Source: Blautia parvula (lineage in GTDB: Bacteria > Bacillota > Clostridia > Lachnospirales > Lachnospiraceae). Taken from it: a DNA stretch of 64,000 nucleotides. The translations under genes were made by a program, and so were the position numbers. Each line of letters starts with the position of its first letter. The first letter of the stretch is position 1. Below are positions 3,364 through 58,574 of the stretch, one piece after another. Location of the stretch: positions 5,616,501-5,680,500 of the forward strand of contig NZ_CP084061.1 in the NCBI RefSeq assembly GCF_020215665.1, read 5' to 3'. A model generated the notes under the pieces. That model was not told the DNA's origin. It worked only from the letters and a program-made list of their open reading frames with translations, and did not search any database.

Positions 3364-3506
3364 GTTACTGTTCACTGCGTGCCCGGCAGCACGCTTCGCG
3401 ATGCACAGATATGGAGCATTTTGCTCCATATCGCGCCGGCTGCCTCGGGATTTTCATGCCTTCGGCCTGAAAACACCTCGCGGGACAGTGGCATGTGAAC
3501 AATAAC
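3364..3506 (+). repeat. 143-bp MITE-like element, copy A
   Basis: Matches 11440-11582 on the opposite strand with 8 differences over exactly 143 bp. Ends are near-perfect inverted repeats (GTTACTGTTCAC and GTGAACAATAAC). Inside is a perfect hairpin (GATATGGAGCA, 3-nt loop, TGCTCCATATC) and a second weaker one around CATGCCTTCGGC. It encodes no credible protein. No clear target duplication is visible at this copy. It separates the zinc-ribbon gene from the LacI promoter. Interpreted as a non-autonomous mobile or structured repeat. Confidence 0.85.
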
Positions 3507-3620: not shown

Positions 3621-4649
3621 ATGCCAGTAACATTACAGCAGATAGCGGAAGCGGCCGGGGTGTCCAGAGGGACGGTGGACCGGGCGCTGAAGGACAGAGG
3701 AAGAGTCCGGCCGGAAGTGGCGGAGAAGATAAAGAATATAGCAAAGGAAATGGGGTATCAGCCCAGTCTTGCGGGCAGGGCCCTTGTTATGGCAAAGCGG
3801 AATCTGAAAATCGGGATCATCATGCAGTCAGCCCAGACCCCTTTCATGGTACAGGTCTATGAGGGGATGAAAGCTGCCAAACAAGAGGTGGAAAGTCTGG
3901 GCGGTACTGTGGAGATCTTTCGTGTGGACGGCGTGGATGCAGGCCGTGTCATGGAAATCATGCAGGAAATGAAGGAGCAGGAGTATTCGGGCATTGCCCT
4001 GTCTCCGTCCGAAGATACCATGCTCAAGAAGATGATCAATCAGTTTTCCGAGGAGTATGGCATTCCTATTATCACCTTTAACTCGGATATTGAGGATACG
4101 AAAAGGATATGCTTTGTGGGGCAGAATACCATCCAGAGCGGAAGGACTGCCGCCGGGTTAATGGGAGAGATCACAGGCGGCAAAGGGGAGGTGGCTGTGA
4201 TCTCCGGCCATATTTCCAACCCTGCGCTGAACAACAGGATCAGGGGCTTTCAGTCCGAGATATTGGAGAGCTTTCCTGGCATCCAGCTTGTGGGAACAAA
4301 ATATTCCTATGATGACGAGTGGGTGGCAGCCAAAATCGTGGAGGAGCTGCTGGAGCAGTACCCGGATCTGAAGGGAATCTACGTGACAGGAACCGCAGTA
4401 AAGGGCGTCTGCGAAGCATTGGTAAAACAGGAAAAGGAACGGGAGATCAAAGTAATAGGCAACGATTTTCTGGATGAGAATAAAAAATGGGTAGAACGGG
4501 GAGCCATCAATTTTCTCATCGGCCAGGATTCCTATATGCAGGGATATGAACCGGTGATGATGCTGTTCCACTTACTTTTTGATGATGAAAAACCGGAATC
4601 TGTTTACCGGTATGCAGAGATTGTGATAAAAAACAGATATAATTTGTAG
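3621..4649 (+). CDS. LacI-family transcriptional regulator, probable iol regulator
   Basis: DNA-binding repressor of about 342 residues. I chose the ATG at 3621 behind GGCAGGAGG, because the LacI helix-turn-helix begins right there (IAEAAGVSRGTVDRAL, residues 7-22), followed by the hinge (YQPSLAGRAL) and a periplasmic-binding-like sugar sensor domain (from about residue 60, KIGIIMQSAQTPF). The upstream frame from 3495 runs through the promoter and is not coding. It lies directly before the inositol genes in the same direction, separated by a hairpin and a 490-bp AT-rich region, and probably controls them in response to an inositol-related ligand. Known: the family recognises palindromes with a central CG. 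Inferred: target and ligand. Confidence 0.85.
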   Translation: MPVTLQQIAEAAGVSRGTVDRALKDRGRVRPEVAEKIKNIAKEMGYQPSLAGRALVMAKRNLKIGIIMQSAQTPFMVQVYEGMKAAKQEVESLGGTVEIFRVDGVDAGRVMEIMQEMKEQEYSGIALSPSEDTMLKKMINQFSEEYGIPIITFNSDIEDTKRICFVGQNTIQSGRTAAGLMGEITGGKGEVAVISGHISNPALNNRIRGFQSEILESFPGIQLVGTKYSYDDEWVAAKIVEELLEQYPDLKGIYVTGTAVKGVCEALVKQEKEREIKVIGNDFLDENKKWVERGAINFLIGQDSYMQGYEPVMMLFHLLFDDEKPESVYRYAEIVIKNRYNL

Positions 4650-4680
4650 CAGTATGACCGCTTTTCAGGCGGTCATACTG
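4650..4680 (+). terminator. hairpin after the LacI gene
   Basis: Perfect 12-bp stem (CAGTATGACCGC / GCGGTCATACTG) with a 7-nt loop directly after the stop codon. There is no U-tract, so termination may be weak or factor-dependent, or the hairpin may protect the 3' end. Confidence 0.55.
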
Positions 4681-4767
4681 TGGTTAACACAGAAAAATGA
4701 CATATCCGCCGGAAAAAAGTATCTGAGGCACTTCAGCCGATTATTCCAAATGAAAAGAAAAAATATA

Positions 4768-4775
4768 CGTGCACG
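4768..4775. promoter_or_regulatory. candidate LacI operator CGTGCACG (site 2)
   Basis: Same palindrome as 3587-3594, here upstream of the inositol operon. Flanks also match when one site is reversed (about 14 of 18 positions). It fits a shared operator for autoregulation and for the operon. Inference. Confidence 0.45.
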
Positions 4776-5030
4776 CATCTTACATTACTAATATATACTC
4801 AAGATTTAATCATTATAATCCATAAATAATATAAAAATTACCATAAATATAGCTTGGAAAAGAATAAATAATAATGCTCCATTACTAAGCTAAAGTAAAA
4901 ATAAACAAAATTCCAGTCTGTCATCCAGGATAAAACTGGAAATAATAAACAACATGCACAAAAACATTGTTTGTTTTTTATCAATTAGCAAAAGTTAATA
5001 AAAATAGACTGTGAATCTTGTACAAAAAAA

Positions 5031-5140: not shown

Positions 5141-6145
5141 ATGTTAAGAGTAGGAGTTATCGGATGCGGCGGAATGGGTAAGGATCACATCAAAAGACTG
5201 ACAAACAAGATTCAGGGAGCTGAGGTAGTCGCAGTATCAGACGTATTTGAGGAGAGTGCAAAACAGGCGGCAGCCATCTGCGGAGCAAAGGTATACACAG
5301 ATGCAAACGAACTGATCAACGACCCTGATGTGGACGCAGTGTTCATTGTATCTCCGGGATTTGCACATGTAGAATCTCTTCTGGCAGCCATCAAGGCAGG
5401 AAAGAGAATTTTCTGTGAGAAACCGCTCTGCACAACTGCTGAGGACTGCCTGAAGGTAGTTGAGGCTGAGGTGGAATCAGGAAAACATCTGATTCAGCTT
5501 GGATTTATGAGAAGATACGACAAAGGCTATATGCAGGTGAAGGAAGCCCTCACATCCGGTGAATACGGCGAGCCCCTGATTCTTCACTGCACACACAGAA
5601 ATCCGGAAGTCGGAACCAACTACACAACTCCAATGGCTGTTCATGATACAGCAATCCATGAGATTGACGTGCTTCACTGGTTAGTGGATGATGAGTATGA
5701 ATCCGCACAGGTTATTATGCCGAAAGTGACAAAATATTCTCACTCTGAATTAAAAGACCCGCAGATCATGCTGCTCCGCACTAAAAAGGGTGTATGCATC
5801 GACGTTGAAGTATTTGTAAACTGCAAATTCGGATATGACATTAACTGTGAAGTAGTTTGTGAAGACGGCGCGATCAAGATGCCTTCACCGATTTACCCAA
5901 GCATCCGCAAAAATGCAGCCGTTGCCACAACCATCGACACAGACTGCTTCGTAAGATTCAAAGACGCTTATGATACAGAGGTTCAGGACTGGGTTGATGC
6001 TGCAGCTGAGGGCGTGATCAACGGACCGACCGCATGGGACGGATACCTGGCAGCTATCACAGCAGACGCACTTGTGAAAGCACAGGAGACAGGCGCAGTA
6101 GAACAGATCAACGCTGCAGTTGAGAAACCGGAGTTTTATAAATAA
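5141..6145 (+). CDS. iolG: inositol 2-dehydrogenase, Gfo/Idh/MocA family
   Basis: Cytoplasmic NAD-dependent oxidoreductase, 334 residues, the usual family length. It would oxidise myo-inositol (or an isomer) to 2-keto-myo-inositol, the first step of inositol catabolism. The Rossmann motif GVIGCGGMGKDH is at residues 5-16, the catalytic lysine lies in CEKPL near residue 92, and the catalytic Asp and His lie in HDTAIHEIDVLHW near residue 170, as in characterised IolG proteins. The ATG at 5141 follows AAATGGAGG. It is the first gene of the inositol cluster and is followed by a clear iolI, which supports the assignment over other sugar dehydrogenases of this family. Confidence 0.85.
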   Translation: MLRVGVIGCGGMGKDHIKRLTNKIQGAEVVAVSDVFEESAKQAAAICGAKVYTDANELINDPDVDAVFIVSPGFAHVESLLAAIKAGKRIFCEKPLCTTAEDCLKVVEAEVESGKHLIQLGFMRRYDKGYMQVKEALTSGEYGEPLILHCTHRNPEVGTNYTTPMAVHDTAIHEIDVLHWLVDDEYESAQVIMPKVTKYSHSELKDPQIMLLRTKKGVCIDVEVFVNCKFGYDINCEVVCEDGAIKMPSPIYPSIRKNAAVATTIDTDCFVRFKDAYDTEVQDWVDAAAEGVINGPTAWDGYLAAITADALVKAQETGAVEQINAAVEKPEFYK

Positions 6146-6249
6146 GCCGAAGTACGGCAATAAACCAAAATACAATAGAAATGAAGCCGGATGCACCAGA
6201 CAAAGCATCCGGCACAAATAAGACAAAAACCGAAAGGATGGTATATATT

Positions 6250-7080
6250 ATGAAACTTGGATTTAATGAGGCAACAGCACTGGAATGTAAAGGACAGTCC
6301 CTTCTGGCTGATATGGAAATGTGTGAAAAATACGGATTTGATTATATTGAGATTCGTTTTGACTGCGTAAAAGATTATCTGCAGGAGCATACCCTGGAGG
6401 AATTGGCTGACTGGTTCAAAAACCATCATCTGAAACCATGGGCATACAACACCCTGATCTATTTCAACCAGAGAGACGAAGCAGGTAAAAAAGAAATCGA
6501 CGATGAAGTGGATTTCATCCTGAAAGTTTCCAAAGCGATTGGTATGAAAATGCTGATCACAGTTCCGAATTTTGACGTAAAAGACAAAAGTGTCAGTGAA
6601 ATCAAGGAAGAAGCTGTGGAAAGACTCCGCTATTTATCAGACAAAGTAGGCGCTGATATGAAAATATCCCTGGAGTTCTGCGGTGCACCAAACTGTTCCA
6701 TCAATCAGTTCGGCACAGCATATGATGTGGTAAAAGCAGTAGACCGTGACAATGTAGGTATCACAGTTGACACCTTCCATTTCCATGAAATGTGCTCTAA
6801 ACTGGAAGATTTAAAAGCAGCAGACGGCAAGAAAATCTTTGCTTACCACTTAAATGACTGCGAAGACCTGCCCCTTGGCTCCTGCGGCGATGACAAACGT
6901 CTGTGGCCGGAAGAAGGTGTGGTAGACCATGCAGGAATCGCTGCAGCTTTAAAAGAGATCGGATTCGACGGCGTGTGCACGATCGAAGAGTTCCGTCCGG
7001 AATATTACGCTATGTCCCATGAGGAGAACGTGAAAAAAGCTGCTGAAGTGACCAAGGCATTTGTAGAAAAATATTTCTAA
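6250..7080 (+). CDS. iolI: inosose isomerase (2-keto-myo-inositol isomerase)
   Basis: A 276-residue TIM-barrel enzyme of the AP-endonuclease-2/xylose-isomerase-like fold. It matches my memory of Bacillus IolI over its whole length: it opens MKLGFNEAT, and has YDYIEIR-like, LEFCG, VDTFHFH, FAYHLND and EEFRPEYY segments, which carry the Glu, Asp, His and Glu metal ligands. It would interconvert 2-keto-myo-inositol and 1-keto-D-chiro-inositol. The frame opens earlier (6181), but ATG 6250 behind AAAGGATGG gives the family N-terminus; ATG 6238 is an alternative. It lies 104 bp after iolG. Confidence 0.88.
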   Translation: MKLGFNEATALECKGQSLLADMEMCEKYGFDYIEIRFDCVKDYLQEHTLEELADWFKNHHLKPWAYNTLIYFNQRDEAGKKEIDDEVDFILKVSKAIGMKMLITVPNFDVKDKSVSEIKEEAVERLRYLSDKVGADMKISLEFCGAPNCSINQFGTAYDVVKAVDRDNVGITVDTFHFHEMCSKLEDLKAADGKKIFAYHLNDCEDLPLGSCGDDKRLWPEEGVVDHAGIAAALKEIGFDGVCTIEEFRPEYYAMSHEENVKKAAEVTKAFVEKYF

Positions 7081-7207: not shown

Positions 7208-7234
7208 CAGGGCGGATGGGTAAGCTCCGCCCTG
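7208..7234 (+). other. intercistronic hairpin upstream of the transporter-kinase gene
   Basis: Perfect 9-bp stem (CAGGGCGGA / TCCGCCCTG) with a 9-nt loop between iolI and the transporter gene, with no U-tract. A smaller hairpin (GCCCT/AGGGC) lies near 7091. These could be RNA processing or stability elements that set different expression of the flanking genes. Confidence 0.45.
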
Positions 7235-7302
7235 TAAAAGGTGATAGTATGGCAAAGGGAGGAATTCCCGAACTGCTGAATTTTAAGCAGAAGGGTAAAG
7301 AT

Positions 7303-9339
7303 ATGAATGAATTCATCAAAGTCCCAATGTCGGAAAAGCTGGCGTACTGTTTTGGTGACCCGGCGCTGACTTTGATGTATACGATGACAACAACACTGCT
7401 GATATATTTCTACACGAACGTGGTAGGCATATCTGCAGGCGCAGTGGGTATGATCATGCTGCTCTCCAGGGTATTTGACGGATTTTCCGATGTGCTCATG
7501 GGAACTATTATTGACAGGACCCATTCCAAATACGGAAAGGCCAGAATCTGGATTCTCCGACTGGCGATCCCGTATGCATTGGCAGCCATTTTGCTGTTTA
7601 CCATGCCTCCCATGGGGGATATGGGGAAGATTATTTATGCATTTGTAACTTATAACATTATGAACACAGTGGTATATACCGCAATCAGCCAGCCTTTCCA
7701 TGCACTTGGTTCACTTATGAGCCGTGACAGGAGAGAGAGGGACGTGATCTGCAACATCCGTATGGTGCTTTCTATTACGGCAAGTATGATCATCACAGCA
7801 TTTACCCTGCCTCTGATCAATAAAGTGGCAAAACTGATTGACAACCAGCAGATGGCCTGGATTCTTGTGACTGCGGCATATGCCATTGTATCCGTATTCG
7901 TTTTGATCAATACATACTGCACCTGTACGGAACGTGTGCAGGCATCCGGCGGCAAAAAGGAAAAAGAAAACACTCCGTTCTGGACTGCTTTCAAAGTTAC
8001 GGTTACCAACAGATATTTCCTTATCGCCCTTGGCCTGATGGTGTTCTATACTGCTTATCAGATCATCATCGGTACAGATCTGACCTATTATTGTCAGTAC
8101 GTGTTAAATGATGTGGATCTGGTTATGCCGCTTTCCGCAGCAGAGAAGATTTCCACTATCATCGGTATCGCAATGCTTCCGAAACTGCTTCCGAAATACG
8201 GCAAGAGAAACCTGATCTGTGCCGGATGTATCCTGGGTATTGCAGGACAGCTTCTCTTCCTGCTGAACATCACAAGTGTTCCGTTAGGTGTCGCAACCTG
8301 TATTATGAGAGGATTTGGTATCGCACCGTTCTACGGCGTACAGTATTCCCTGCCAAGTGATGCCATTGAGTATGGCCACTGGAAGACAGGTGTCCGCGTA
8401 GAAGGCCTTATGTTCTCCTCCATGAGTATGGGACAGAAAGCAGGTTCAGGCTTTACATCCGCTATCATGGGCGCAATTCTTTCCATGGCAGCATTTGACG
8501 GACTGAAAGCAACAGCAGCGGAGCAGACAGCATCTGCGATCTCCGCCATCAAGACCTTTTATCTGTATGTGCCCATCGCCATCTGGGTGATCATGTTTAT
8601 CATAGCAGCATGTTATAAGCTGGACAAAATGTATGATAAGATGATGCGCGAGCTGATTTCCAGAGAAGGAAAGAACGAGCTGGAAGAGATTCCGGTGGCA
8701 GCGCACTCTGAGAATAAGATCAATGTGGCCATTGGCCGTGTCTATGGCAGCAGCGGAAGAAAGATTGCGGAGGAAATCGCAAAAGAACTGAACTGCCGTG
8801 TCTATGACCGTCAGATCATCTGTCTGCTGGCAGAGAAGATGGGAATGGAAACTTCCAATCTGGAGGAAGTGCAGAAATATCTGGATAATTATAACTATGG
8901 GGACAAAGAGCCCACATTCTCTCCGTATGCCTACCCACAGGCAGGTGTAGCGGATGATATGAACGCTGTCAAAATGTTTGAAGAACAGAGCCGGATCATC
9001 AAAGGCCTTGCCAGAAGCGCGCCCGGCGTATTCCTGGGAAGATGTGCAAACTTTATCCTTGGCGGACAGGAACACACCTATTCCTTCTTCATCTATGCAG
9101 ATGATGAATACAGGGAAAAAGAAGGCAGGGAATATTACGGCGGCATTTCTCTGGAAGAACTGAAGGAGAAGGATGAGATGCGGAACAGCTATTATGAGAA
9201 ATTCACCGGCATGCGGCGTGATGACCCGAAACATTACGATATGGTTGTCAATGTATCAAAGACCGGTGTACAGGGCACAGTTTCCATGATTCTTGATTAC
9301 ATTAGGAACAAAGAAGAGAGCAGTAAGGGAGGAAATTGA
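7303..9339 (+). CDS. GPH-family sugar transporter fused to a cytidylate-kinase-like domain
   Basis: Two-part protein of 678 residues. Residues 1 to about 460 are a glycoside-pentoside-hexuronide cation symporter of the MFS fold: the start [11 protein letters not shown] and the loop [14 protein letters not shown] are hallmarks, with twelve or so membrane spans. After a charged linker, residues from about 471 to 670 match the cytidylate kinase-like family ([20 protein letters not shown], then VYDRQII, then [10 protein letters not shown]), with a P-loop that has lost the usual GKT. A typical GPH transporter ends near residue 460. I chose ATG 7303; ATG 7249 behind AAAGGTG is possible, while 7216 lies in a hairpin. 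Context says it imports inositol or a derivative. The role of the kinase-like tail is unknown. Confidence 0.85.
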
Positions 9340-9341
9340 TA

Positions 9342-10238
9342 ATGTTGGATAAAAGCAAAGTAAGACTGGGTATCGCTCCCATTGCATGGACCAATGATGA
9401 CATGCCTGATCTGGGCAAAGAAAATACATTTGAGCAGTGCGTCAGTGAGATGGCTCTGGCCGGATTTACAGGCTCCGAGGTGGGCGGTAAATATCCCGCA
9501 GATACAGAGGTACTGAAAAGAGCCCTTAATTTAAGAGGAATCCAAATCTGCAACCAGTGGTTCTCCTCCTTCCTCATTTCCAGACCATATGAGGAGACAG
9601 AGAAGGAATTCATCAAAGCCACGGATTTTCTGAAGGAAATGGGCGCAAAAGTGATCGGCGTATCCGAGCAGAGCTACAGCATCCAGGGAAAGATGGAGCA
9701 GCCTGTCTGGGAAGGCAAATATGTCATGGATGACCGGGAGTGGAAATTGCTTGCGGAAGGCCTGAATAAGCTGGGAAAAATAGCGAAGGACAAGGGCATG
9801 ACACTTACTTTCCATCATCACATGGGAACTGTTGTGCAGACAGAGGAGGAGATTGACCGTTTCATGGAAATGGTTGACCCTGAGCTGGTATTCCTTCTTT
9901 TTGACAGCGGACATCTGTCCTTTGCAGGCATTGATCCAGAAAATGTGCTGAAGAAATATGTAAACAGAGTAAGACATGTACATCTGAAAGACATCCGCAG
10001 AGAGATGGTGGAAAAATCCAGAAACGAGAGATGGAGCTTCTTAAAAGGTGTCCGTGAAGGCGTGTTCACCGTACCCGGAGACGGAGATGTGGACTTTGCA
10101 CCGATCTTCAAAATTCTTGAGGAGGCCGGATACGAAGGCTGGGTTGTTGTGGAAGCTGAGCAGGACCCCGCAAAGGCCAATCCTCTGGAATATGCAAAGA
10201 AGGCAAGAGCTTATATTGCGGAAAAAACAGGTTTATGA
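9342..10238 (+). CDS. iolE: myo-inosose-2 dehydratase
   Basis: TIM-barrel dehydratase of 298 residues that removes water from 2-keto-myo-inositol to give the trihydroxycyclohexane-dione intermediate. The N-terminus [18 protein letters not shown] is the IolE hallmark; further family segments are [32 protein letters not shown] and VRHVHLKD (metal ligands). ATG 9342 follows AGGGAGG with 9-nt spacing and lies 2 bp after the transporter stop, so it is in the same transcript. The upstream TTG 9336 is a poorer start. Confidence 0.9.
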
Positions 10239-10309: not shown

Positions 10310-11230
10310 ATGAAGATCGCATTTGACGTGGACGTACTGGCAAAACAGATGGACATCAACCGTATGGTCCATCAGGTTGCAGATTGGGGATATAAATATA
10401 TTGAACAGTCACCCCATCCGAGAATCAATCCGTTTTACAAACATCCGCTTTTTTCCAAAGAGTGCGAACAGGAATACAGGCAGGCTCTGAAGGAGACAGG
10501 CGTGGAGATCTCATCTTTCATCGTTGTATACCGCTGGTCAGGCCCCACGGAAGAGCAGAGACAGTTCGCGGTTGCCAACTGGAAACGTATGATTGAGATT
10601 GCAGTGGACATGGGTGTCCAGGTTATCAACACAGAGCTGTCCGGTGACCCGAACCAGCAGGAAATCTGCAATGGCATGTGGTTCAGATCCATGGAGGAAC
10701 TGCTTCCTATTATAGAGAAGGAAGGCATCCGTGTGGAAATCCAGTCCCATCCCTATGATTTCTGCGAGCTGAACAATGAGACCTGTGACCTGGTAAAATC
10801 CTTCCGTTCCAAAAATCTGGGATATGTATATTCTTCCCCTCACGGCTTCTTCTATGACGAGGGCAAAGGGGATGTGCGTTCCATGCTGAGATATGCGGGA
10901 GATGAACTGACCCATGTACTGTTTGCAGATACCTTTAATCAGACACTGGACTGCCGTTACATCGCCAATCCGCCGTGGCTGAACGGCCGGGGAAAAGCAG
11001 ATGTGACCATTCATCAGCACCTGGCAATGGGGGAAGGAGATGTGGATTTTGACGGCATCTTTGAAACTCTGCGTGATATGGATTTTGCAAATAAACAACT
11101 GAAAGAAAATGCCCCGAAAGTGGGCGGTGACAATATCGCCTGCGTCTCCATGTTCGGTTTTCCTGAGAAAATGGATAAACAGGCACCGGAGGCAAGAGAG
11201 AGGATCGAGAGAGAACTTCTGGGAAAATAA
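10310..11230 (+). CDS. sugar phosphate isomerase/epimerase, IolH-like
   Basis: TIM-barrel protein of 306 residues, third member of this fold in the cluster. It resembles Bacillus IolH in the opening (MKIAFDVDVLA, then YIEQSPHPRINPF), in the segment SSFIVVYRWSGPTEEQR, and in HVLFADTFNQ and HQHLAMGEGDVDFDG. IolH function is not firmly known; it is thought to act on keto-inositol or a later intermediate. ATG 10310 follows AGGAGGAAATCAAT. Last gene of the cluster, followed by a terminator. The exact reaction is inferred only from family and neighbours. Confidence 0.7.
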   Translation: MKIAFDVDVLAKQMDINRMVHQVADWGYKYIEQSPHPRINPFYKHPLFSKECEQEYRQALKETGVEISSFIVVYRWSGPTEEQRQFAVANWKRMIEIAVDMGVQVINTELSGDPNQQEICNGMWFRSMEELLPIIEKEGIRVEIQSHPYDFCELNNETCDLVKSFRSKNLGYVYSSPHGFFYDEGKGDVRSMLRYAGDELTHVLFADTFNQTLDCRYIANPPWLNGRGKADVTIHQHLAMGEGDVDFDGIFETLRDMDFANKQLKENAPKVGGDNIACVSMFGFPEKMDKQAPEARERIERELLGK

Positions 11231-56932: not shown

Positions 56933-57304
56933 ATGAAGTATTTGAGACAATTCTGTATTATTTTACTTTTTTCATTTCTGGGAGAAGGGCTTCATATTAT
57001 CCTGCCGCTTCCCGTGCCTGCCAGTGTCTATGGTCTTGTTCTGATGCTGGCCGCGCTTCAGACAGGGATTCTGAAGACGCGTCAGGTGAGGGAAACGGCG
57101 GGTTTTTTGATTGAGATCATGCCTGTGATGTTCATACCCGCTGCCGCGGGGCTGCTGAATTCATGGGGCGTGCTGAAACCTGTCTTCGTTCCGGTTGCAG
57201 TTATAACTGCGGTCACCACGGTTTTCGTCATGGCAGTGACAGGACTTGTGACCCAGGGGATTATACGGAAGGGGAAAAAGAAAAATGAAAGCATTTCTGA
57301 GTGA
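56933..57304 (+). CDS. lrgA: LrgA/CidA-family membrane protein
   Basis: 123 residues, four spans, opening RQFCIILLFSFLGEGLHIILPLPVPASVYGLVL, the LrgA/CidA signature. The family is holin-like; some pairs are now known to transport pyruvate or similar small acids. ATG behind GAAGGAGGAG. Overlaps lrgB by 20 bp. Confidence 0.9.
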   Translation: MKYLRQFCIILLFSFLGEGLHIILPLPVPASVYGLVLMLAALQTGILKTRQVRETAGFLIEIMPVMFIPAAAGLLNSWGVLKPVFVPVAVITAVTTVFVMAVTGLVTQGIIRKGKKKNESISE

Positions 57305-57977
57305 TTCTGTTTTCTGGGGAGCTGTTTTAAGCCTGCTTGGGTATGAAGCGGGGCTGCTTCTCAAGAGAAAATTTAAAATGGCAGTCTTTAACCCACTGCT
57401 TATAGGTGTTATCTGTGTGATGGGTGTGCTGGCAGTGGGGCATATTGATTATGACAGTTATTATGAAGGCGGCAGGTATATCAGCTACCTTCTGACACCG
57501 GCAACGGTATGCCTTGCAGTGCCTTTGTATGAACAGATGGGGCTGTTGAAGAAAAATCTGAAGGCTGTGGCAGCAGGGCTGATTTCCGGCGTGCTTGCCA
57601 GCCTTGTCAGTGTATTTCTTCTGGCAAAGCTTTTCGGCCTGAACCATGCCCAGTATGTGACGCTGCTTCCAAAGTCCATTACAACAGCGATCGGTATGGG
57701 AGTGTCTGAGGAATTGGGCGGAATTGTCACAATTACCGTGGCAGTTATCATTATTACCGGGATATTGGGCAACATGATAGGAGAAGTGATATTTAAGATT
57801 TTCCGTATTCAGGAGCCTGTGGCAAAAGGACTGTCCCTGGGGGCCGCGTCCCATGCCATCGGAACGGCAAAAGCTATGGAGCTTGGTCCGGTGGAGGGCG
57901 CCATGAGCAGTCTGGCAATCGCGGTAGCAGGTCTGTTGACTGTGATCGGTGCCTCAGTGTTTGCAGGGTTTATGTAG
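57285..57977 (+). CDS. lrgB: LrgB/CidB-family membrane protein
   Basis: 230 residues, about six to seven spans, with [19 protein letters not shown] and [17 protein letters not shown], both diagnostic for LrgB. Works with LrgA in autolysis control or organic-acid transport. The next gene, a cytidylate-kinase-like protein, starts 18 bp later and is probably cotranscribed. Confidence 0.92.
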
Positions 57978-57995: not shown

Positions 57996-58574
57996 ATGGA
58001 AAAAGGAATCATTACCATAGGAAGACAGTACGGAAGCCAGGGGAGGGCAGTGGGGAAGATGCTTGCGCAGCGCCTGGGCTGTGCCTTTTATGACAAAGAA
58101 GAGCTTGCCAGGATCGCCAGGGGAAGAGATTATGAGGAAGTAAGGGAATTTTATGAGGAACAGCCTGTAGACAGCCTTTTGTATGCCATTGCCATGAACA
58201 ATGAGGAGGGAGAAGTGGGAAGGATACCCTTTGCCCGTATCCGGGAATTGTGCGGCAATGGTCCCTGTGTACTCATTGGCCGGTGCGGAAATGAGATCTT
58301 CCGGGAAAAACAGGATGCCGTAAGTATTTTTATACACGGGGATATGGAAAAGAGGGTTCAATATGTGACGGAGACAGAGGGGATTTCCGCACACGGTGCC
58401 AAAAAGAAAATAGACAGGGTGGATGAGGAGCGGGCATCTTTCCACAGGTATTATACCCACAGAGAATGGGGAAGGGCGGATGCCTATGAGCTGTGTCTTG
58501 ACAGCAGTGTTCTGGGGGCGGATAAGTGTGCAGAGGTGATATTTGATTATCTTAAGATCAGGGGGCTGTTTTAA
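57996..58574 (+). CDS. cytidylate-kinase-like family protein
   Basis: 192 residues: IITIGRQYGSQGRAVGKMLA at the start is the family's altered P-loop, then FYDKEEL, VLIGRCGNEIF, FIHGDMEKRV and a C-terminal LCLDSSVLGADKCAEVI. The family is related to CMP kinase, but the normal GxxGxGKG loop is absent, so nucleotide kinase activity is uncertain. It resembles the C-terminal domain of the transporter fusion at 7303-9339. ATG behind GGAAGGGAGCGG. Confidence 0.85.
   Translation: MEKGIITIGRQYGSQGRAVGKMLAQRLGCAFYDKEELARIARGRDYEEVREFYEEQPVDSLLYAIAMNNEEGEVGRIPFARIRELCGNGPCVLIGRCGNEIFREKQDAVSIFIHGDMEKRVQYVTETEGISAHGAKKKIDRVDEERASFHRYYTHREWGRADAYELCLDSSVLGADKCAEVIFDYLKIRGLF

Follow-up and report, generated by a model that had tools for sequence, protein, structure and literature searches.

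The gene at 7249..9339 (+) of the window, the whole stretch of 64,000 nucleotides analysed here, encodes a GPH symporter whose C-terminal end carries a complete domain of the Pfam family PF13189, named 'cytidylate kinase-like' (Cytidylate_kin2) and abbreviated here as CK2. The bacterium that carries it is probably a gut-type member of the Lachnospiraceae. The fusion is real, rare and spread over several genera. Its tail belongs to a family in which the Walker A lysine is missing in every sampled member, and genes of this family lie beside transporter-type genes far more often than control genes do. The best reading of the sequences is that CK2 is a regulatory module, which probably binds a phosphorylated ligand and is no working CMP kinase. 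On balance, it is probable that the protein is a GPH symporter with a CK2 tail derived from a GPH-CK2 gene pair, and that CK2 serves as a portable regulatory partner of transporters.

The fusion gene and its surroundings

The frame at 7303-9339 (+) is uninterrupted over 678 codons, in an ORF that opens at 7216. Because the 'ELLNFKQ..KDM' region ahead of codon 7303 is kept in six relatives, a start at 7249 is likelier than one at 7303, which would then be internal. In the fusion protein, the MFS_2 domain (PF13347, E 7.3e-80) covers residues 15-442, at 7345..8628 (+), and PF13189 covers residues 475-653, at 8725..9261 (+), matching positions 2-176 of the 176 in its profile with an E-value of 7.2e-33. 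The continuous frame from a membrane domain into a cytidylate-kinase-like domain, which an earlier sequence-only reading had claimed, is thus confirmed, with both Pfam domains complete. The tail is a full member of its family, scoring 114.7 bits against a curated cut-off of 28. The linker between the two parts, at 8629..8724 (+), is poorly conserved, with an amino acid identity of 0.33-0.60 to six relatives over 30 codons. The membrane part matches TIGR00792 over positions 1-437 of 437 with 310.9 bits, above the cut-off of 231.35, and its nearest solved relative in the PDB is MelB (E 3.5e-37), while those nearest to the tail are 3hdt and 3fdi. It is a GPH:cation symporter by this model, and cation-coupled sugar transport is predicted. 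Following MFS_2, PF13189 is the sole Pfam match in the fusion protein at E <=0.01, and no EIIA-Glc-like C-terminal domain is found there.

Searching other genomes for the same fusion, as had been suggested, yields eight further distinct full-length copies, nine with that of the window. Two of the frames are 706 and 705 aa long (L025 and L026), while an additional copy (L014) is cut by the end of its contig. The records of Faecalicatena orotica and Clostridium sp. Marseille-P2415 are strain records bearing the same join. In the genome's own family, the fusion is present in 4 of 299 genomes representing 298 genera, its own included, one of the four probably being the same assembly as one of the eight copies. 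One other genome of the same genus, among those listed in the family draw, has no fusion at the threshold used. In the class-level draw of 291 genomes, a fusion-length frame appears among the matches only in the genome itself, so the earlier description of the fusion as unusual is right.

The tail is 62-76% identical to that of the window in seven relatives and 66-69% in the family draw; the transporter part is better conserved than the tail, and the linker less so. The dN/dS ratio of the tail, computable in two of eight pairs, is 0.08-0.11, with dS near saturation. The tail seems, from these comparisons, to be kept by selection. That two genes were merged by a sequencing or assembly error, or joined by a frameshift, has a negligible probability and is rejected, because the eight further full-length copies come from independent assemblies, two of them records of named strains, and the family draw contains the fusion as well. 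Neither a frameshift nor an absence from all relatives is therefore found. A tail that is a neutral leftover of the loss of a stop codon, on its way out, would be expected to change faster than the transporter part and to have altered conserved sites, both of which are seen here, but this explanation is very improbable given that the tail is present in nine full-length fusions, stays at the identities given above while the linker is less conserved, and has a dN/dS of about 0.1, albeit with dS near saturation.

The genes around the fusion lie on the same strand. Upstream are a LacI-type regulator with a periplasmic-binding-like domain (3621..4649, +; PF00356 and PF13407), whose start is inferred in an ORF that opens at 3495, a Gfo/Idh/MocA dehydrogenase resembling inositol dehydrogenase (5141..6145, +) and a xylose isomerase-like TIM barrel (6181..7080, +; AP_endonuc_2 by Pfam), which in relatives starts at about 6250. 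Downstream are the myo-inosose-2 dehydratase IolE (9336..10238, +; TIGR04379) and a second xylose isomerase-like TIM barrel (10310..11230, +; Pfam). The opening TTG of the IolE ORF overlaps the stop codon of the fusion, and the true start of IolE is probably a few codons downstream. In relatives with enough flanking sequence, inspection by eye shows largely the same set of genes, though their order varies, and look-alikes of the 6181..7080 TIM barrel adjoin both fused and unfused GPH-CK2 loci. IolE scores 430 bits against a cut-off of 290, while the dehydrogenase, at 473 bits, is below the inositol dehydrogenase cut-off of 540 (NF052679), and because of this mixed result inositol or a keto-inositol is put forward as a plausible substrate, read from the neighbouring sequences.

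Fold and conserved residues of the CK2 domain

The predicted structure of the tail has a pLDDT of 79.4, with weak regions at 48-51 and 66-86. In Foldseek, it shares the fold of the solved PF13189 members, with 3hdt (E 3.1e-12, TM 0.71/0.88) and 3fdi ranking best, followed by CMP and shikimate kinases; the gluconate-kinase fold is also among the hits. The match to the CMP kinase 2h92 has an E-value of 3.2e-6 and TM scores of 0.56/0.55. The cytidylate-kinase-like fold that had been assigned to the tail, together with the suggestion to compare its predicted structure with CMP kinase, therefore holds up, with a full PF13189 profile and 2h92 among the structural matches, even though 3hdt and 3fdi are closer. 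The model of the full-length fusion, with a pLDDT of 46, is too poor for the packing of the tail on the transporter to be read from it.

In the 157 distinct CK2 domains sampled, the position of the Walker A lysine, set by eye in an ungapped alignment to the Cmk of the same genome, is occupied by Gly in 155 and by Ala in two. At the following position, 125 of the 157 have Arg, Lys or His, and six have Ser or Thr. The corresponding ten-residue stretch of the window protein does not fit the canonical Walker A pattern, GxxxxGK[ST]. The altered P-loop noted in the sequence-only reading is thus real, but it is no peculiarity of the fusion, and a loss of the lysine specific to the fusion is rejected, since the change is common to the whole sampled family. 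The tail reaches 19 bits with the (d)CMP kinase model TIGR02173 of NCBIfam, whose cut-off is 102.1. With this score and no Walker A lysine, the candidate function of a canonical CMP kinase is rejected, and CK2 is, as far as its sequence tells, unlikely to be a canonical kinase. An anion- or nucleotide-binding role is suggested instead.

Several sites are well conserved among the 157 domains: an Arg before the loop (97%), GSGG, YD, GRC, an Arg of the LID, D..R..YY, a Trp (81%) and a further YD. Four Arg residues, R12, R113, R137 and R160 in the numbering of the first row, are invariant in an alignment of 15 sequences taken from fusions, from GPH pairs and from the copy linked to LrgAB. In the fused clade, all ten rows have G[SA]SG in place of GSGG, Arg in place of Trp and Glu in place of the second LID Arg; the change of Trp to Arg also occurs in two of the 147 rows outside this clade. 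Because sites that are well conserved in the family are changed in all ten, the putative ligand site of the fused tails may be different or lost.

Origin of the fusion and transporter partners of the family

The 169 CK2 hits include two that are too short to align, and the other 167 reduce to the 157 distinct domains, from which a tree was built with FastTree (three long rows, L036, L146 and L162, are flagged). All 24 GPH-labelled rows, nine fused and 15 adjacent, are located inside one 29-row clade with a local support of 100. The ten fused-type rows, one of which is the contig-cut L014, form a single clade nested within it, also with a local support of 100. The five rows of the larger clade that have no GPH label are L014, L159, where an MFS_1 gene precedes CK2 by 50 bp, and three in which no transporter was found. 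A search with the tail alone finds seven loci in which CK2 is fused or the gene is cut by the contig end, and it also matches unfused CK2 five times, in Mitsuokella, Megasphaera and Veillonellaceae. Counting one more that lies in a flank, these unfused loci contain six distinct CK2 genes, spread over four contigs, and each has a GPH gene upstream, with a gap of -11 to 58 bp. TIM-barrel- or IolE-like genes are seen by eye in these loci too. The genome studied here has the unfused GPH-CK2 pair twice, with gaps of 3 and 113 bp. Since all 24 GPH-labelled CK2 domains are in one 29-row clade, the sequences are most simply explained by a fusion that arose once, from an existing pair in which the CK2 gene followed the GPH gene.

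The class of transporter follows the CK2 tree closely. The 80 labelled rows require nine class changes, where the minimum possible is seven; three of 200 label shuffles, which ignore kinship, gave 46, 47 and 46. With the unlabelled rows included, there are 26 changes, compared with a shuffled mean of 73.7. Taken singly, GPH against all other rows requires six changes, and MATE five.

The genome has nine PF13189 genes and a separate Cmk that looks canonical by sequence. Transporter fusions account for two of the nine: the window gene and L031 (4445-6478), whose MFS_1 part is presumably of the DHA2 type and whose CK2 domain is in another part of the tree than the GPH fusion. Two more follow GPH genes, one sits between MATE and AI-2E family genes, one follows lrgA-lrgB, one adjoins an RluD-type gene, and for two no transporter is seen. 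The lrgA and lrgB genes (56933..57977, +; PF03788 and PF04172) are directly upstream of the second CK2 gene of the window, which is free-standing (57996..58574, +; PF13189, E 3.8e-42) and begins 18 bp past lrgB. As LrgAB, too, is a pair of membrane proteins, CK2 is linked to membrane proteins twice within the window.

In other genomes, CK2 is fused to EamA in L146, to DUF6198 in L035 and to MATE in L034, L145 and, partly, L147. In L147, the MATE part seems to be divided between the frame at 3953-5011 and a frame upstream that overlaps it. In L035 (4959-6149), a TAG lies within the match, and CK2 stops at position 159 of the 176 in the profile. Five Pfam families are thus found fused to CK2, yet they are not five unrelated proven transporters, because GPH and MFS_1 share a superfamily and no function is known for DUF6198. 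The adjacent partners identified by Pfam are ABC ATPases, MATE, GPH, CitMHS, CitMHS_2, AI-2E, AcrB-type RND, amino-acid permease and MFS_1 proteins. In three loci (L044, L091 and L096), CK2 comes after the ABC ATPase of an operon that is, by eye, of the branched-chain amino-acid type, and overlaps the next gene, which encodes a membrane protein of 767-774 aa, by four bases. In the phylum draw, PF13189 of other families lies in longer open frames, which reach about 316-366 aa in G492, G585, G610 and G539, among others. One CK2 clade, represented in seven loci (L027, L039, L042, L051, L058, L060 and L083), has an RluD-type pseudouridine synthase beside it and no labelled transporter, and several of its loci are, by eye, near lspA-like genes; a different role is possible for this clade. 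An expression table for Fusobacterium has a cytidylate kinase-like entry, RS03620, and an RND permease, printed as RS3610, which are apparently two tags apart (an entry in the table of PMC9848294).

The neighbour statistics draw on 142 CK2 genes, of which six are fused. They comprise all 111 order-draw matches from genomes other than its own, seven of the genome's own nine, both window copies being left out, and 24 from 22 regions of the phylum draw. Because these regions included long frames chosen deliberately, the counts of fusions are not frequencies. A transporter-type neighbour on the same strand within 100 bp is present for 52 of the 98 unfused CK2 genes and for 18 of the 147 controls, which are genes for soluble proteins of about the same size, taken from the same loci at a distance of at least 2.5 kb (Fisher 6e-12). 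Neighbours on the opposite strand show no excess (7/52 against 11/76), which disfavours a merely transporter-rich region as the explanation. The excess is also found in the order draw alone (35/75 against 15/122, P 1.8e-7) and with one gene per 50%-identity cluster (17/39 against 18/147, P 3.8e-5, the controls being unclustered). The baits of the transporter classifier, in which RluD does not count as a transporter, were proteins from CK2 loci, a choice that favours CK2 neighbours. A test free of baits, based on neighbours of at least 300 aa with at least six TM segments within 30 bp, gives 18/55 against 4/119 (P 2.8e-7). Gene calls and TM counts in these comparisons come from simple scripts, and related genomes are not independent.

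By Pfam, 123 CK2 neighbours and 123 control neighbours, drawn from 196, contain ABC_tran in 23 and 4 cases, MatE in 9 and 2, MFS_2 in 8 and 0, and CitMHS in 7 and 0, respectively, where 0 means absence from the 25 families listed. The classifier leaves 77 of the 157 CK2 rows unlabelled, for seven of which Pfam later identified a transporter-type gene alongside, and an RluD-type gene adjoins seven of the 157. Among four fresh loci, two have MATE, one a UppP-like protein (by eye), one nothing labelled, and none GPH. At E <=1e-20, PF13189 is found in 55 of 116 genomes of the order-level draw, its own included, and in four of 14 control genomes, three of them archaea; the archaeal matches are perhaps the archaeal CMP kinase.

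Possible mechanism and comparison with known systems

In the mechanism proposed here, the fusion protein would be a cation-coupled GPH symporter for sugars or polyols, probably for inositol or a keto-inositol. The C-terminus of MelB is cytosolic and, by analogy, the end of the fusion that carries CK2 would also face the cytosol. CK2 would keep the NMP-kinase fold and conserved arginines that could bind a phosphorylated ligand, without the canonical catalytic P-loop, and in its ligand-bound form would permit or block the transporter with which it is paired. The ligand would be a common intracellular one, and fusion would guarantee that CK2 is paired with its transporter. In this lineage, the two genes of an ancestral pair, with CK2 behind GPH, would have merged into one. 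A control module is the most economical reading, because one conserved site is paired with both importers and exporters of many families; several of the partner families, MATE, RND, MFS_1 and EamA, are often exporters. The sequence-only reading had proposed control of transport by nucleotides, of which it is the control part that gains indirect support, from this pairing with many families, the usual exporters included. A wider proposal is tentative and somewhat less probable than not: PF13189 would serve anaerobic Bacillota generally as a module for the control of transporters, a catalytically retired NMP kinase whose copies all respond to the same phosphorylated signal. It would gate both importers and exporters, from about a dozen Pfam families, as an adjacent gene or a fused domain; a genome would have as many as nine copies, and many copies would serve one transporter each.

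Two other accounts give CK2 an activity of its own. It may be a substrate-trapping kinase, each copy phosphorylating the solute imported by its partner, here inositol or a keto-inositol, by means of a non-canonical P-loop. The fold shared with NMP, shikimate and gluconate kinases, the conserved Arg and Asp residues, and the clades that track transporter class, as solute-specific kinases would, are all in keeping with this account. It is nevertheless unlikely, since the Walker A lysine is absent from all 157 domains with a Ser or Thr adjacent in just six, and since a kinase for the transported substrate would have little purpose next to MATE or RND proteins, or other partners that are often exporters such as MFS_1 and EamA. 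In addition, the inositol route to which the neighbouring genes point begins with a dehydrogenase and a dehydratase, whose steps need no prior phosphorylation. The coupling of uptake to phosphorylation, also raised in the sequence-only reading, is disfavoured on the same grounds, with Gly or Ala at the lysine position throughout and Arg, Lys or His most often following it. Hardly more probable is a CK2 that works on its own, as an enzyme or as a sensor of some common metabolite, and does no more than share operons with transporters; fusion would then provide equal amounts or a membrane location. The unlabelled half of the rows and the clade that goes with RluD-type genes are compatible with such a protein, but the fusions to five Pfam membrane families and the agreement of CK2 clades with transporter class fit a physical partnership better.

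PF13189 is common among relatives and bears the name of an enzyme in Pfam, while the titles of the two solved members found here give no function. If the family is a true partner of transporters, an uncharacterised family would offer a regulator that can be tested for sugar uptake, drug efflux and amino-acid import alike, the natural fusion would offer a single protein for finding the ligand and measuring its effect, and a misleading enzyme label would be corrected.

The literature search found no paper for 'Cytidylate_kin2' and no discussion of PF13189 together with transporters in the portions of the sources covered. The terms 'cytidylate kinase-like' or 'PF13189' appear as table entries in PMC8756737 and PMC9848294 and are absent from the main text of PMC7806268, and 'cytidylate' and 'kinase-like' are absent from the main text of PMC10710835. 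The claim of novelty is limited, because the C-terminal domain fusions of MFS transporters treated by Willson et al. 2019 (as cited in PMC10710835) may already include one with PF13189. A regulatory domain attached to a transporter is a known idea; PF13189 is apparently undescribed in such a role, and its reach is unexpectedly broad.

Among known proteins, the tail is of the same family and fold as 3hdt and 3fdi, whose titles are 'putative kinase' and 'uncharacterized protein', although the fused clade has changed sites relative to the family. It shares its fold with bacterial Cmk (2h92) but, unlike Cmk, CK2 does not have the Walker A lysine. PII-family proteins are cytosolic signal proteins with an action on several transporter families (AmtB, NrtABCD and SbtA), as outlined in PMC10710835. 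They are another protein family, and their action on transporters is reported there, whereas that of CK2 would follow from its genomic partners. UspA, CBS, CNBD and PAS domains, some of them nucleotide-binding, are fused to MFS and other transporters, and UspA is also encoded within transporter operons (passages of PMC10710835). The CK2 tail resembles these attachments in being a small add-on domain on a transporter, and differs from them in fold and motif. A further parallel in PMC10710835 is LacS of streptococci and lactobacilli, in which HPr phosphorylates a fused EIIA-Glc-like domain and thereby changes transport. Like LacS, the protein described here is a GPH symporter with a fused domain, which in LacS is regulatory. 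Unlike LacS, its tail is a PF13189 domain with the NMP-kinase fold and not a IIA domain, and the family of this tail is paired with many other transporter families.
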